64,000 bases of DNA, taken from NCBI GenBank assembly GCA_017510785.1, contig JAFWMH010000026.1, positions 1 through 64,000 on the forward strand. Direction: 5' to 3'. This document shows positions 4,362 through 11,651 of the stretch, in pieces. Numbering within the stretch: the first letter of the stretch is position 1; the number at the start of each line of letters is the position of its first letter. A program made the translations under genes and the position numbers. This DNA comes from Atopobiaceae bacterium (GTDB lineage Bacteria; Actinomycetota; Coriobacteriia; Coriobacteriales; Atopobiaceae). The notes beneath the pieces are model-generated. The model was not told the DNA's origin. It ran no database searches and worked only from the letters and a program-made list of their open reading frames with translations.

Positions 4362-5621
4362 TTAACCAAGTTCGGGATACAGCGGATGCGCCGAGAGGAG
4401 CTCGGCAACCTCAGCCTTAACGGCAGCCAGTGCGGCCTCGTCGTCGAGGTGGGTTACGGTTTGGCCAATGAGCTCTCCGATGCGCTCGGCCTCGTCTTCG
4501 CCAAAGCCGCGTGTCGTCATGGCCGCAGAACCCACGCGGATGCCGCTCGTCACAAACGGGCTGCGCTTCTCGCCGGGAATCGTGTTCTTGTTTACGGTGA
4601 TGCCCACCTCGTCGAGGGTGTGCTCGGCAATCTTGCCCGTCACCTCATCGCCAGCGGTGGTAAGGTCCACGAGCAGCAGGTGGTTATCGGTGCCACCCGT
4701 CACAAGACGAAGGCCCTTTGCCTCCATGCCACGCCCAAGTGCCTTGGCGTTGGCGCACACCTGGTCGATGTAGGTTGCGAAGCTTGGCTGCAGTGCCTCG
4801 CCAAAGGCCACGGCCTTTGCGGCAATGATGTGCTCAAGCGGACCACCTTGGCTGCCAGGGAACACAGCCGAGTTCATGCGGCGCGTAAGCTCCTCGTCGT
4901 TCCAAAGGATAAGGCCACCACGCGTGCCGCGCAGGGTTTTGTGCGTGGTGGTGGTTACGACGTCGGCAACACCTACCGGCGTGGGGTGCGCGCCCGTCGC
5001 CACAAGGCCCGCGATGTGGGCCATATCCACCATGAGCGCGGCGCCGTTGTCGTGAGCGATTTGAGCAAAGCGCTCGAAGTCGATGATGCGCGGATAGGCG
5101 GAAGCACCCGCAATGATGAGCTTGGGCTTGTACTCCTCGGCCTTGGCAGCCACGTCATCGAAGTCGATGCGCTCGGTTTCGGGATTAAGACCATAGCTCA
5201 CCACATTGAACAGCTTGCCAGAGTAGTTGGCCGGGCTGCCATGGGTAAGGTGGCCGCCATTCGAAAGGTCCATGCCCATCACGGTATCGCCAGGCTGGGC
5301 AAACACGCTGGTCGCTGCGTAGTTAGCCTGCGCGCCCGAGTGCGGCTGTACGTTGGCGAAGGCAGAGCCGAAGAGCTTCTTGGCACGATCGCGCGCGAGA
5401 TTCTCTACGACGTCAACAGCCCAGCAGCCACCATAGTAGCGCCGACCAGGCAAACCCTCAGCATACTTGTTGGTAAGCGGGCTGCCTGCAGCCTCCATAA
5501 CGGCCAGACTCACGAAGTTCTCGGATGCAATGAGCTCGATGGAGTTGCGCTGGCGCGTGAGCTCGTCGTTCATGGCCGAAGCAAGCTCGGGATCGGAGGC
5601 AGAGATGTACTTGAGTTCCAT
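4362..5621 (-). CDS. glyA: Serine hydroxymethyltransferase
   Basis: A 419-residue PLP enzyme of normal family length. It interconverts serine plus tetrahydrofolate with glycine plus 5,10-methylene-tetrahydrofolate and is the main cytoplasmic source of one-carbon units. Family hallmarks are complete: [12 protein letters not shown] near the N-terminus, [23 protein letters not shown], and the PLP Schiff-base lysine Lys228 in [14 protein letters not shown]. The start ATG at 5621 is preceded by AAGGG at a suitable distance. A TATACT hexamer at about 40 nt upstream could be the -10 element, but no good -35 is seen. The gene is monocistronic, with its own terminator at 4318-4355. Confidence 0.97.
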
Positions 5622-5875
5622 AGTGTGCCCTTCAAGAGATTTTACTGCAAACGGTAGTATAGACGCCCTGAGCGGTTCGCGCTACCCGTATATGGAAAAA
5701 GGCACACCGTTCCCCAGATTTATTGTTGCGAGTTGAGTTGCGGCTTCATCCGCTTGGCTTCTCTTTAATTGGCGGTACCATGAAATTGTGGCGCAAACAA
5801 AATCGCGCCAGTAGCCACGGCGCACGCCTTTCCATGTTGTGGGTCCGTCGGGCTCGCCTCGGGCATTGCCGCTCA
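5622..5875. other. Intergenic region between divergent glyA and AAA ATPase genes
   Basis: Holds the glyA leader (TATACT on the minus strand and AAGGG at the start) and about 150 bp with no recognisable gene, running into the 23/46-bp repeat array at 5876. An open frame passes through from 5723 on the plus strand, but the repeat period (46 bp) is not a multiple of three, so this part is unlikely to be translated. Confidence 0.6.
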
Positions 5876-6045
5876 CCCAACGGTTTCGTCACAATCTGCA
5901 CAACGTGGCTATTGCATTCTGCCCAACGGATTCGTTACAATCTGCACAACGGAATCATTGCATTCTGCCCAACGAATTCGTCACAATCTGCACAACGGAA
6001 TCATCGCATTCTGCCCAACGGTTTCGTCGCAATCTGCACAGCAAC
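5876..6045. repeat. Tandem array: 46-bp repeats, each two related 23-bp halves
   Basis: Copies start at 5876, 5922, 5968 and 6014, exactly 46 bp apart. Each splits into two 23-bp halves: an A half (CCCAACGG, then T/ATTCGT, then ACAATCTG) and a B half (CACAACGG, AATCATT, GCATTCTG). Seven full 23-mers are present; the eighth (from 6037) decays into the ribosome site of the downstream ATPase. There are no unique spacers. The array ends about 15 bp before the start codon at 6062, so it would lie in the promoter or leader of that gene. Confidence 0.9.
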
Positions 6046-6061
6046 TTCACAAGGAGAATCC

Positions 6062-7336
6062 ATGTCATTCGAATACTACCCAAGGCTGGCGGACGACGAA
6101 CTTCGGAGGGGGCTCCAGAGGTCAGGTGCGGTGGTAATACGGGGCGCGAAGTGGTGCGGCAAGACTGAGACGGCAATCCAACAGGCAAGGAGCATAATAT
6201 TCCTGCAGGACCCCGATGAGTACGAAAACAACCTGCTCACCGCACAAACAAAACCATCGCTTCTGTTGGCGGGTGACCAGCCGCGGCTCATCGACGAGTG
6301 GCAGGACTTCCCTCAGGTGTGGGATGCGGTACGTTTTGCCATCGATCGTCAGCACAAAAGGGGCTGCTTTATCCTTACCGGATCAGTCTCCCGCGAGATG
6401 GATGCGAATGAGAAACCGAAGCACTCCGGCGTGGGCAGAATCGCGTCCATGACCATGCGTCCCATGAGCCTATTCGAGTCGAGGGAGTCATCAGGAGAGG
6501 TCTCGCTTGGAGCCCTCTTCGAGGGGGCCAAAGACGTCGCCGGCACGTCGAGCTGGGATATTGAGGACGTCGCGCGTCAGGTCTGCCGGGGAGGGTGGCC
6601 GGAGGCAGTTGCCGCAGGAGAGGAGACAGCAGGCGACCTGGCACGCGACTACCTTGACGCCGTGGCCGAAAGAGATGTGAGCCTTCCCGACGGCGTGCGG
6701 AGGGACCCCACGCTCGTCAGGCTCATAATGGCAGCATACGCACGATGTACCGCAACACAGGCCAGTGGAACCACCATCCGTGGGCACGTAAACGCCTCCC
6801 GGGAGGACATCTCGAGAAACACGGCAAGCGCTTACATAGGTTCACTGCGCAGGCTATACCTATTCGAGGATCTCCCCTCCTGGCGGCCGTCGCTGCGGGA
6901 CAAAGCCCGAATCACCGCAACACCGAAGAGGCACTTCGTCGACCCGTCCCTTGCCGCCGCAGCTCTAGGCGCGACTCCCCAAAACCTCCTGCACGACTTG
7001 CCAACACTCGGCCAGCTCTTTGAGTCGCTTGTCGTACGAGACCTGCGCATATACGCGCAAGCCATTGGCGGGAAACTGCATCACTACCACGACGGAGCCG
7101 GTCGTGAGGCCGATGCCGTCATCACGATGCCCGATGGCCGCTGGGCCCTCGTCGAGGTCAAGCTCGGCGGCAAGGGCGTCGCAGACGGCGCGAACGCCCT
7201 TGCCGGCCTCGCTAAAACAATAGACCAAACGATTATGGGATCGCCATCATTCCTGGCCGTCGTGCATGCGGGAAGATTCGCGTCGCACCTCGCCAACGGA
7301 GTGCTCGCTCTCCCACTCGGATGCTTGAAGCAGTAA
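6062..7336 (+). CDS. AAA-family ATPase with DUF4143 (AAA_14) domain
   Basis: A 424-residue protein from ATG 6062, chosen because AAGGAG lies just ahead and the upstream frame runs through the repeat array. Residues about 15-140 form an AAA_14 ATPase: Walker A GAKWCGKTE, Walker B LIDEWQ and a LTGS sensor-like motif. The C-terminal DUF4143 part ends with GREADAVITMPDGRWALVEVK, which has the E/D-x-n-D-x-n-ExK spacing of PD-(D/E)xK nuclease folds, as proposed for many members of this family. Members are common, scattered and poorly understood in actinobacteria and anaerobes; roles in nucleic-acid metabolism or as toxin-like modules have been suggested. It stands alone, convergent with nudC 24 bp downstream, and is preceded by the 23-bp array, which may be its operator. 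Confidence 0.9.
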   Translation: MSFEYYPRLADDELRRGLQRSGAVVIRGAKWCGKTETAIQQARSIIFLQDPDEYENNLLTAQTKPSLLLAGDQPRLIDEWQDFPQVWDAVRFAIDRQHKRGCFILTGSVSREMDANEKPKHSGVGRIASMTMRPMSLFESRESSGEVSLGALFEGAKDVAGTSSWDIEDVARQVCRGGWPEAVAAGEETAGDLARDYLDAVAERDVSLPDGVRRDPTLVRLIMAAYARCTATQASGTTIRGHVNASREDISRNTASAYIGSLRRLYLFEDLPSWRPSLRDKARITATPKRHFVDPSLAAAALGATPQNLLHDLPTLGQLFESLVVRDLRIYAQAIGGKLHHYHDGAGREADAVITMPDGRWALVEVKLGGKGVADGANALAGLAKTIDQTIMGSPSFLAVVHAGRFASHLANGVLALPLGCLKQ

Positions 7337-7360
7337 CGTTTTCTCAAACACGGATGGGAT

Positions 7361-8224
7361 TCATTCGCCCCGGGCATCCATATGCCGGTCGCGCCACAGG
7401 CACATCATTTCGTTCGTAAGCGAGAAGTCGTCGGGCTGTCCCGGAATCGCATCGGGGCCAACCCACTCAGCGCGGCCTAGCTCGTCTTTGTCGCGATGAA
7501 TCGTAGGGTCTCCCACTACATCGCACCAGTATCCACACAAAAGGTCGCCGGCCACGCCCCAAGGCTGCGACTTGTAGTAGCGGATGTTTGCTACCTCTAA
7601 ACCGAGCTCCTCGCGTACTTCGCGACGCACGCAATCCTCCATCGTCTCGCCAATCTCAGCAAAACCAGCAACGAGTGCATCGATGGCAAAGTAACGCCCG
7701 GCGGCATAACGCGTAAGCACGATCTTATCGCGCACGGGGTCGCATACGCACACAATGACGGCTGGGTTAAGACGAGGAAACACCGTGTTGCCACAAGCAG
7801 AGCAACGCATGGCACGCAACGTAGCGTGCGGTTGCATCGCATGTCCGCACGCACCGCAAAAGCGCGTCTTGGCATACCAGTCGGCCAGATGCACCGCCGT
7901 ATACACAGCGAACATCAACTCGCGCGGGCCACGACGCTCCTGACGCAGCACGCGGTTGTGAATATACTCGTAGTTCGTAGGCGGTTCAGCAGCCCCAGCG
8001 TTGGGTGCGAGCCAACACGCCTCGCCATCGAGCGCGAACAGGTACGTAAGACCCTCAACCGGCACGCCCTCTTCGCCAACACGTGGAACATCGAGGCCAT
8101 GATCACCCTCACGTCGTACCGCAAGCTCTTGTCCACGAACAAAGAACACCCGCTCGCCCGCCGCCGGCCGTGCCTCGTACTCGTACTCGTTTGCTAGCCG
8201 ATGCGGTGCAATATCTTGAATCAT
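7361..8224 (-). CDS. nudC: NudC-like NAD(H) pyrophosphatase (Nudix)
   Basis: A 287-residue protein from ATG 8224, preceded by GGAGAG; longer versions would overlap tsaC. It has an N-terminal domain, a four-cysteine zinc ribbon (CGACGHAM and CSACGN), then a Nudix box GFAEIGETMEDCVRREVREE in the canonical G-x5-E-x7-RE-x2-EE form. Enzymes of this type cleave NAD(H) to NMN and AMP and can remove NAD caps from RNA. The usual SQPWPFPxS signature after the Nudix box is changed here to SQPWGVAGDLL, so nicotinamide-dinucleotide specificity is not certain. It is last in the prfA-prmC-tsaC-nudC run, 28 bp after tsaC. Confidence 0.85.
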   Translation of the reverse strand: MIQDIAPHRLANEYEYEARPAAGERVFFVRGQELAVRREGDHGLDVPRVGEEGVPVEGLTYLFALDGEACWLAPNAGAAEPPTNYEYIHNRVLRQERRGPRELMFAVYTAVHLADWYAKTRFCGACGHAMQPHATLRAMRCSACGNTVFPRLNPAVIVCVCDPVRDKIVLTRYAAGRYFAIDALVAGFAEIGETMEDCVRREVREELGLEVANIRYYKSQPWGVAGDLLCGYWCDVVGDPTIHRDKDELGRAEWVGPDAIPGQPDDFSLTNEMMCLWRDRHMDARGE

Positions 8225-8252
8225 GGCGCTCTCCGTTCCGTTCGCCAAAACC

Positions 8253-8882
8253 TTACAGTTGGGCATATAGCTCGTGTTTCCCGATTGCGCCCTGGCGCAG
8301 AATGCGCGGCTCAAGTGCCGTAGCGTCTACGATGGTGCTTGCAACGCCAACGGGCGCTGGGCCGGCATCGAGCGTGAGGTCGGCCTGCTCCACGATTCGC
8401 GGCTCGACACCTGCACCACTCGTGGCCGCAGCCTCGCCATGCGTGTTGGCACTCGTCGTAGCCAATGGCCCCACTTCGCGCACAAGCTCACGCACGAGGT
8501 TTGAGTCGGGCACACGCAACGCGATGGTCCCATTCGCCGCCCTATACTCTCGCGGAACCGCGTCACTCGCCTGCACTACCAACGTTAGCGGGCCAGGCCA
8601 CAACTCGCGAGCCATGCGCTCGGCCCATTCGGGTACATCCGTCCCATACACAAGCAAATCCCGCGCATCGCCCACGAGCCACGGCAGCGTTTGCGCTCGG
8701 TCGCGATGCTTGATGGCAAAGATCTGCTCGTGCCCGGGATTCTCCGCGACCGCGGCACATCCAATGCCGTACACCGAATCGGTTGGCATAACGAGCACGC
8801 CACCCGCACGCAGCACATCCGCAGCACGACGCAGCACATCCTTTGCCGGGACGTTTTGGTCAACGTGCAACAGGGCACCCAT
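8253..8882 (-). CDS. tsaC: Sua5/YrdC-type L-threonylcarbamoyladenylate synthase
   Basis: A 209-residue YrdC-fold protein from ATG 8882 (AAGGCGG upstream). It makes threonylcarbamoyl-AMP from threonine, bicarbonate and ATP, the first step of tRNA t6A37 synthesis. The motifs MPTDSVYGIGC, the SIKRR-like AIKHRDRAQTLPWLV, PGPLTLVV and ATTSANTHGEAA fit the family. The length corresponds to the short TsaC/YrdC form without a separate Sua5 C-terminal domain. The pairing with prfA and prmC is a common bacterial gene order. It follows prmC by 26 bp. Confidence 0.9.
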   Translation of the reverse strand: MGALLHVDQNVPAKDVLRRAADVLRAGGVLVMPTDSVYGIGCAAVAENPGHEQIFAIKHRDRAQTLPWLVGDARDLLVYGTDVPEWAERMARELWPGPLTLVVQASDAVPREYRAANGTIALRVPDSNLVRELVREVGPLATTSANTHGEAAATSGAGVEPRIVEQADLTLDAGPAPVGVASTIVDATALEPRILRQGAIGKHELYAQL

Positions 8883-11237: not shown

Positions 11238-11651
11238 CTACTCAGCGTCGCCTGCGGCATCGGCAGCTGCAGCGGCCTCCTCGGCAGCCTTCTTGGCGGC
11301 CTCAGCCTCGGCACGCTTCGCATATTCGGCAGCGCGGGCAGCCTTCTTGGCGGCCTTGGCCTCGGCAGCAGCCTTCTTGGCGGCCGCGAGCTCGGCAGCC
11401 CTCTTCGCGCGGGCTTCCTTGGCGGCAGCAGCGCGAGCGAGCTGGGCTGCGGCGGCACCACCGAACTTGTCGGCAAAGCGCTGAACGCGTCCGCCCGTAT
11501 CGACGAGCTTCTGTGTGCCGGTGTAGAACGGGTGGCACTTGTCGCAAAGGTCGAGCCTCATGCTGGGCACCGTGGCGCGCGTGGTCCACGTATTGCCGCA
11601 GGAGCAACGAACAGTGCACTCCATATAGTTGGGATGAATGCCTTGCTTCAT
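11238..11651 (-). CDS. rpmE: 50S ribosomal protein L31 with long Ala/Lys/Glu-rich tail
   Basis: Residues 1 to about 70 are a zinc-binding L31 (MKQGIHPNY; Cys16, Cys18, Cys36 and Cys39; HPFYTG; RFADKFG). L31 bridges the two ribosomal subunits. The family normally ends here at 66-90 residues, but this protein runs on for about 65 residues of almost pure Ala, Lys, Glu and Arg, predicted to be one long helix, to 137 residues. ATG 11651 follows GAGGAGAAACC. A small stem (CCTGGT at 11671-11676 with ACCAGG at 11682-11687) sits in the leader and could take part in feedback control, which is only a guess. Confidence 0.93.

Follow-up and report, generated by a model that had tools for sequence, protein, structure and literature searches.

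A rigid 23-bp repeat array before a PDC-S01-type ATPase gene is probably an operator read by the gene's own product

What is the function of a tandem repeat array that lies directly before an ATPase gene in a 64,000-nucleotide stretch of an Atopobiaceae bacterium genome (the window), and what reads it? Tandem Repeats Finder resolves positions 5876-6040 (+ strand) both as a period of 46 (3.6 copies, 90% matches, score 258) and as a period of 23 (6.3 copies), and cutting into 23-mers from 5876 gives seven full units (5876-6036) plus 4 bp of the next, confirming the strict alternation of two unit types reported in the first-pass annotation. Units 1, 3, 5 and 7 are CCCAACGGATTCGTCACAATCTG-like and units 2, 4 and 6 are CACAACGGAATCATTGCATTCTG-like, with 13 of the 23 columns invariant across all seven. 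The type-A units occupy 5876-5898 (CCCAACGGTTTCGTCACAATCTG), 5922-5944, 5968-5990 and 6014-6036, and the type-B units 5899-5921 (CACAACGTGGCTATTGCATTCTG), 5945-5967 and 5991-6013, which gives the 46-bp super-period. The distance from the end of the array to the ATG at 6062 is 21 bp, not the ~15 bp originally estimated, and the intervening segment (6041-6061) contains a Shine-Dalgarno sequence, AAGGAG (6051-6056, +), read from the sequence; no consensus sigma-70 promoter was recognised in the window. The earlier argument that coding selection does not explain the repeats holds: the period is not divisible by three, and the start at 6062, backed by the Shine-Dalgarno sequence, is conserved at the matching position in homologues (M..Y.PR), so the array is non-coding and a coding origin is excluded. 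A CRISPR array is also rejected, as the 23-mers are contiguous, without spacers of CRISPR length. Nor is the array a product of chance, because shuffled or control sequence almost never yields a 22-23 period in the self-repeat test described below.

The gene behind the array (6062-7336, +) encodes a 424-residue protein, P0001, with ATPase, winged-helix and PD-(D/E)xK folds, and is matched by Pfam AAA_14 (PF13173; 43.9 bits vs. a gathering score of 27) and DUF4143 (PF13635; 107.6 bits vs. 28.1). The Walker A motif, GAKWCGKT (residues 28-35; 6143-6166, +), contains G28, G33 and K34, which are invariant in homologues, and the PD-(D/E)xK motif originally flagged as possible, E349.D351...E365.K367 (7106-7162, +), is borne out by conservation of these residues at 97, 100, 98 and 97%, respectively, on the expected strands. 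The protein also matches the PADLOC model PDLC04790 (PDC-S01; E 6.5e-67, residues 4-422), as do four array-bearing homologues, and is thus, judged by sequence, a candidate phage-defence protein of the PDC-S01 class. The passages on PDC-S01 in PMC12988326 describe an ATPase fused to PD-(D/E)xK that is the fourth commonest (candidate) defence system in prokaryotes, with ~40,000 copies in one survey, and anti-phage validation is described there as pending for most PDCs; those in PMC13356809 count 10,358 PDC-S01 loci in the rumen. The PDC-S01 passages of these two papers say nothing of repeats before the gene, of DNA specificity or of autoregulation, and we found no mechanism for PDC-S01 in the literature searched. 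Searches of PHROGs and NCBIfam with P0001 returned no informative family, and no solved structure related to it by sequence was found.

The array and the gene lie between glyA (4362-5621, −) and nudC (7361-8314, −), which adjoin one another in relatives L283-L286 and L289. The ~1.7 kb insertion in the window (approximate extent 5700-7380, +) consists of the array and this single gene and nothing else, so that the two appear to move together as one cassette; homologues with arrays are also found on plasmids and viral-type contigs. Elsewhere in the window, a bL31-like ribosomal protein gene (11238-11651, −) has a long Ala/Lys/Glu-rich C-terminal tail built from imperfect 27-30-bp repeats.

Homologues were collected from the same taxonomic family and then from the class (Coriobacteriia), and the 250 bp before each start were scanned by self-alignment at lags of 12-70, with a locus considered positive when the best lag was 22, 23 or 44-46. 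We find an upstream period of 22-23 bp, or its double, in 160 of 176 non-redundant loci, compared with 5 of 173 downstream, none of 176 in the first 250 bp of the gene, 1 of 176 deeper in the gene and none of 176 block shuffles. Several of the 16 loci without a clear array carry weaker 23-bp copies by eye, e.g., L069, L075, L104 and L148. The spacing is nearly invariant, with 363 of 367 unit-to-unit steps exactly 23 bp; arrays mostly contain 3-4 copies, and the comparison of copy number between relatives that had been proposed reveals a difference in 29 of 45 close pairs, the kind of variation on which a phase-variable leader, another option of the first-pass annotation, would depend. The unit letters differ from locus to locus while the pitch and layout are conserved. 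The expectation that other DUF4143 genes are preceded by such repeats is therefore upheld for the period, but the letters suggested for the search, CAACGG and CAATCTG, were too narrow: looking elsewhere for the same repeat letters finds almost nothing, since these are private to each protein.

The first-pass annotation reasoned that repeats scattered genome-wide, away from ATPase genes, would speak against the roles it proposed. We find the opposite, as arrays precede nearly all homologues and units occur essentially at their own gene only in the genomes checked. The window unit is confined to the array in its own genome, with one two-mismatch match elsewhere, a level equal to that of a reversed-pattern control. 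Downstream of the gene, the own unit is absent in 147 of 149 loci; the two exceptions are L041, with an extra copy just after the stop codon (G003:C3:704313-704327), and L215, with one 87 nt after the stop. With only these two cases, downstream copies were dropped as a sign of a target site. A Flavobacterium match (L018) was likewise dropped as an array case, there being no DUF4143 match in its genome.

Registration of 153 period-23 loci, carried out without protein data, reveals a shared unit layout that consists of an A-rich linker (columns 0-6), a variable box 1 (7-10), an A-W-W core (11-13) and a variable box 2 (14-20), and a separate leave-one-out fit favours the same strand in 132 of these loci. 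The last unit ends a median of 42 nt before the start, and TANNNT boxes are concentrated 6-7 nt past it (21 counts among 84 loci, whereas no single position exceeds 6 in shuffles), so the -35 and spacer region probably lies under the last unit. Across the family, the repeated sites overlap or adjoin the promoter of the gene that they precede.

The 23-bp pitch also precedes homologues in Bacteroidota, Chlorobiota, Bacillota, Proteobacteria and viral-type contigs, and is found before plasmid relatives in Bacteroides ovatus, Bacteroides uniformis, Prosthecochloris, Lentilactobacillus and Spartinivicinus. This pitch recurs in seven IMG/VR contigs, of which two resemble each other and one has about eight copies; a Rhizobium relative has a pitch of 22 bp, an Actinomyces relative is a weak two-copy case, and in Mycobacterium riyadhense four units can be made out by eye, ranking below the top score of the scan. 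A Thermus relative has a palindrome in place of the array. At loci of other DUF4143 ATPase subfamilies, often with GARQVGKT, the 23-bp array is replaced by palindromes or inverted repeats, perfect or nearly so, immediately upstream of the gene (L132, L135, L142-L145, L151, L154, L163, L169, L171 and L178), which may represent a second type of operator in the family. Members with a GPRQ[SC]GK-type Walker A motif are likewise preceded by direct repeats of 23 or 46 bp (L159, L161, L168, L174, L176, L177, L179, L181, L182, L184 and L186), and the array is therefore probably older than the KWCGKT clade. At a DUF4143 locus of another actinobacterial family (L155), the upstream region contains a 33-bp direct repeat in about three copies.

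The bases of the unit covary with four residues of the protein: 252 and 253, in the predicted recognition helix (residues 252-264; 6815-6853, +), 283, in the predicted wing (A282 and R283; 6905-6910, +), and 345, in the loop before a strand of the PD-(D/E)xK fold (7094-7096, +). After correction for overall similarity (MI-APC over about 9,700 residue-base pairs), the top three pairs are 253-column 19 (z 11.4), 345-column 8 (z 9.2) and 252-column 16 (z 7.4), with 283-column 9 lower. Permutation within 24 clades places these four pairs at ranks 1, 3, 4 and 13 of 9752, respectively; the strictest version, within 45 clades, places them at 3, 6, 28 and 8521, and the 283-column 9 signal is mostly between-clade. 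Among 76 disjoint sister pairs, 252-column 16 comes first among 7716 tests (p = 6.9e-8), and 345-column 8 has the largest leave-cluster-out information. The second pair in the sister-pair test, D249-column 17, failed within-clade permutation and was dropped, and a pairwise-correlation statistic was not relied on because, under plain row permutation of its matrix, null maxima reach 0.35, equalling the best pair.

The resulting pairings are chemically sensible. At column 16, arginine and lysine at residue 252 prefer G (0.83 and 0.90) and glutamate prefers C (0.67); at column 19, aspartate and glutamate at residue 253 prefer G (0.86 and 0.72), proline A (1.00), serine T (0.81) and asparagine C (0.66). 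At column 8, lysine at residue 345 prefers G (0.78), glutamate and aspartate C (0.91 and 0.71), and asparagine and serine T (0.96 and 0.77); at column 9, arginine at residue 283 prefers G (0.74) and alanine C (0.84). The window fits this code at R252/G16, N253/C19 and R283/G9. We then find, in a matching test with the code trained in Coriobacteriia and equal register freedom allowed for true and swapped proteins, a sum of 28.3 vs. 0 ± 6.6 (p = 5e-5) for 14 loci of other classes or phyla, a weak signal (p = 0.06) for 13 held-out Coriobacteriia or weak-array loci, and p = 5e-5 for all 27. When single bases are predicted with automatic register for loci outside the training set, there is no clear gain (35 of 95 vs. 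31.8 expected, and 37 of 89 vs. 30.7), which we attribute to the uncertain register of the units; only register-free matching succeeded. A few amino acids predict the bases of a protein's sites, and by implication each protein would be the reader of its own control region.

An AlphaFold2 model of P0001 obtained with eight sequences has a pLDDT of 76.8 overall, mostly 84-94 from residue 200 on, ~68 around residues 270-290 and low in the ATPase half. The model contains a helix-turn-helix, formed by helix 236-246, a turn and helix 252-264, with residues 252 and 253 opening the second helix. Residue 283 falls in the loop between this helix and strand 289-292, and residue 345 between strands 338-343 and 349-355, the latter of which bears E349 and D351. 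The best structural matches to residues 1-303 are the archaeal AAA ATPases SSO1545 (2fna, Z 6.7) and PABY2304 (2qen, Z 7.5), at Z values in the range of common arrangements and with the likeness confined to these residues, the PD-(D/E)xK domain being unaligned. The C-terminal fold matches McrC, Card1 and Can2 at modest Z (5.5-6.7), and a STAND-type comparison gives CED-4 and NLR matches at Z 4.7-5.9, with the ATPase part at low pLDDT.

The position of the repeats before nearly all homologues, their lack of scatter and the covariation of their bases with predicted contact residues strongly support an autoregulatory operator bound by the ATPase, one of several roles entertained in the first-pass annotation. 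Binding of the array by the ATPase encoded behind it is strongly inferred, and we consider autoregulation through this binding probable. The array would be the private operator of the gene behind it, with every 23-bp unit bound by a single ATPase protomer or by an oligomer of fixed size; box 2 would be read by the recognition helix (252/253), and box 1, on the other side of the A-W-W core, by the wing (283) together with the nuclease-fold loop (345). Several protomers would then line up head to tail, at a constant spacing of 23 bp, over or beside the promoter, an arrangement that makes repression of the ATPase's own gene the most likely outcome and would keep the ATPase-nuclease parked on the DNA. 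A signal, plausibly phage or foreign DNA, would alter the state of the ATPase through a putative ATP switch and take the protein off the array, and the vacated array would leave the gene derepressed and the nuclease free to act. Release on infection is plausible. In Thermus thermophilus HB27, the AAA_14/DUF4143 gene TT_P0211 rose 6.6-fold in the joint presence of plasmid DNA and Argonaute (PMC4406477), which hints at inducibility and is compatible with such release, if perhaps in another subfamily. Each paralogue would have diverged to its own site, such that neighbours coexist without cross-regulation. Only tentatively do we extend this to PDC-S01 proteins as self-addressed sentinel nucleases, held inactive and head to tail on a private array by a short residue-to-base code, with the nuclease fold contacting the site, infection releasing the protein and derepression coupled to nuclease action; if true, specificity would be predictable, and possibly redesignable, from sequence.

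A last unit just upstream of a -10-like box occupies a position used by activators too, and the ATPase might therefore activate its own promoter, by positive autoregulation or as a bistable switch. However, the array extends to within ~20 nt of the start in the window and in many other loci, which is more like steric repression, and we consider activation unlikely and repression the more likely sense of control. The presence of array-bearing homologues on plasmids and viral-type contigs and the highly diversified unit specificities would also suit superinfection-type immunity or incompatibility, in which the protein already in the cell would recognise its array on any plasmid or phage arriving with the same cassette; this seems improbable as the function of the array, as it may simply be a consequence of self-binding.

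The nuclease domain brings up a different possibility, that the array is its cleavage or integration target, in a homing- or transposition-like process, and not mainly an operator. Conserved PD-(D/E)xK residues, the tracking of a unit base by residue 345 of the nuclease fold, the mobility of a cassette whose flanking genes glyA and nudC are adjacent in relatives, and the quick change in copy number are all in keeping with a target, but the copies stand upstream only, with the own unit downstream in just 2 of 149 loci, no unit is seen at the empty site in L283 and no array elsewhere in the genomes checked, and the position of the array and the -10 box suggest promoter control, all of which makes a target role quite unlikely. 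Slippage with no binding role would explain how readily tandem repeats arise and why copy number varies between close relatives, but not an exact 23-bp pitch maintained with different letters across phyla, the absence of repeats downstream or the residue-base covariation; the latter and the matching test effectively refute this explanation, which we regard as having a negligible chance of being correct. A self-read operator, in turn, combines a universal private site with residues that predict its bases, and so provides an uncharacterised ATPase with a predicted DNA target. Binding, repression and induction become directly testable for any PDC-S01 member, the target sites of orphan members become predictable, and hundreds of naturally diverged protein-array pairs make up a rare data set on DNA recognition by a winged helix and a nuclease fold.

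That a gene product reads its own operator is a known principle; an array of rigid 23-bp pitch that a putative ATPase-nuclease reads by way of a decipherable code is undescribed in the literature searched. The DNA-binding products of toxin-antitoxin, phage-repressor and defence-regulator genes read private sites in their own promoters, and PDC-S01 resembles these in its own-promoter private sites and in divergence from paralogues. PDC-S01 differs in that the ATPase-nuclease is itself predicted to do the reading, without a dedicated regulator beside it, and in that the sites are direct repeats of rigid 23-bp pitch. Iterons, the direct repeats of ~20 bp beside a plasmid Rep gene that Rep binds via winged helices, are similar in repeat length and in their position beside the gene of a winged-helix binder, as predicted for PDC-S01; unlike iterons, which accompany a Rep gene and an origin, the array studied here belongs to a stand-alone cassette on the chromosome.
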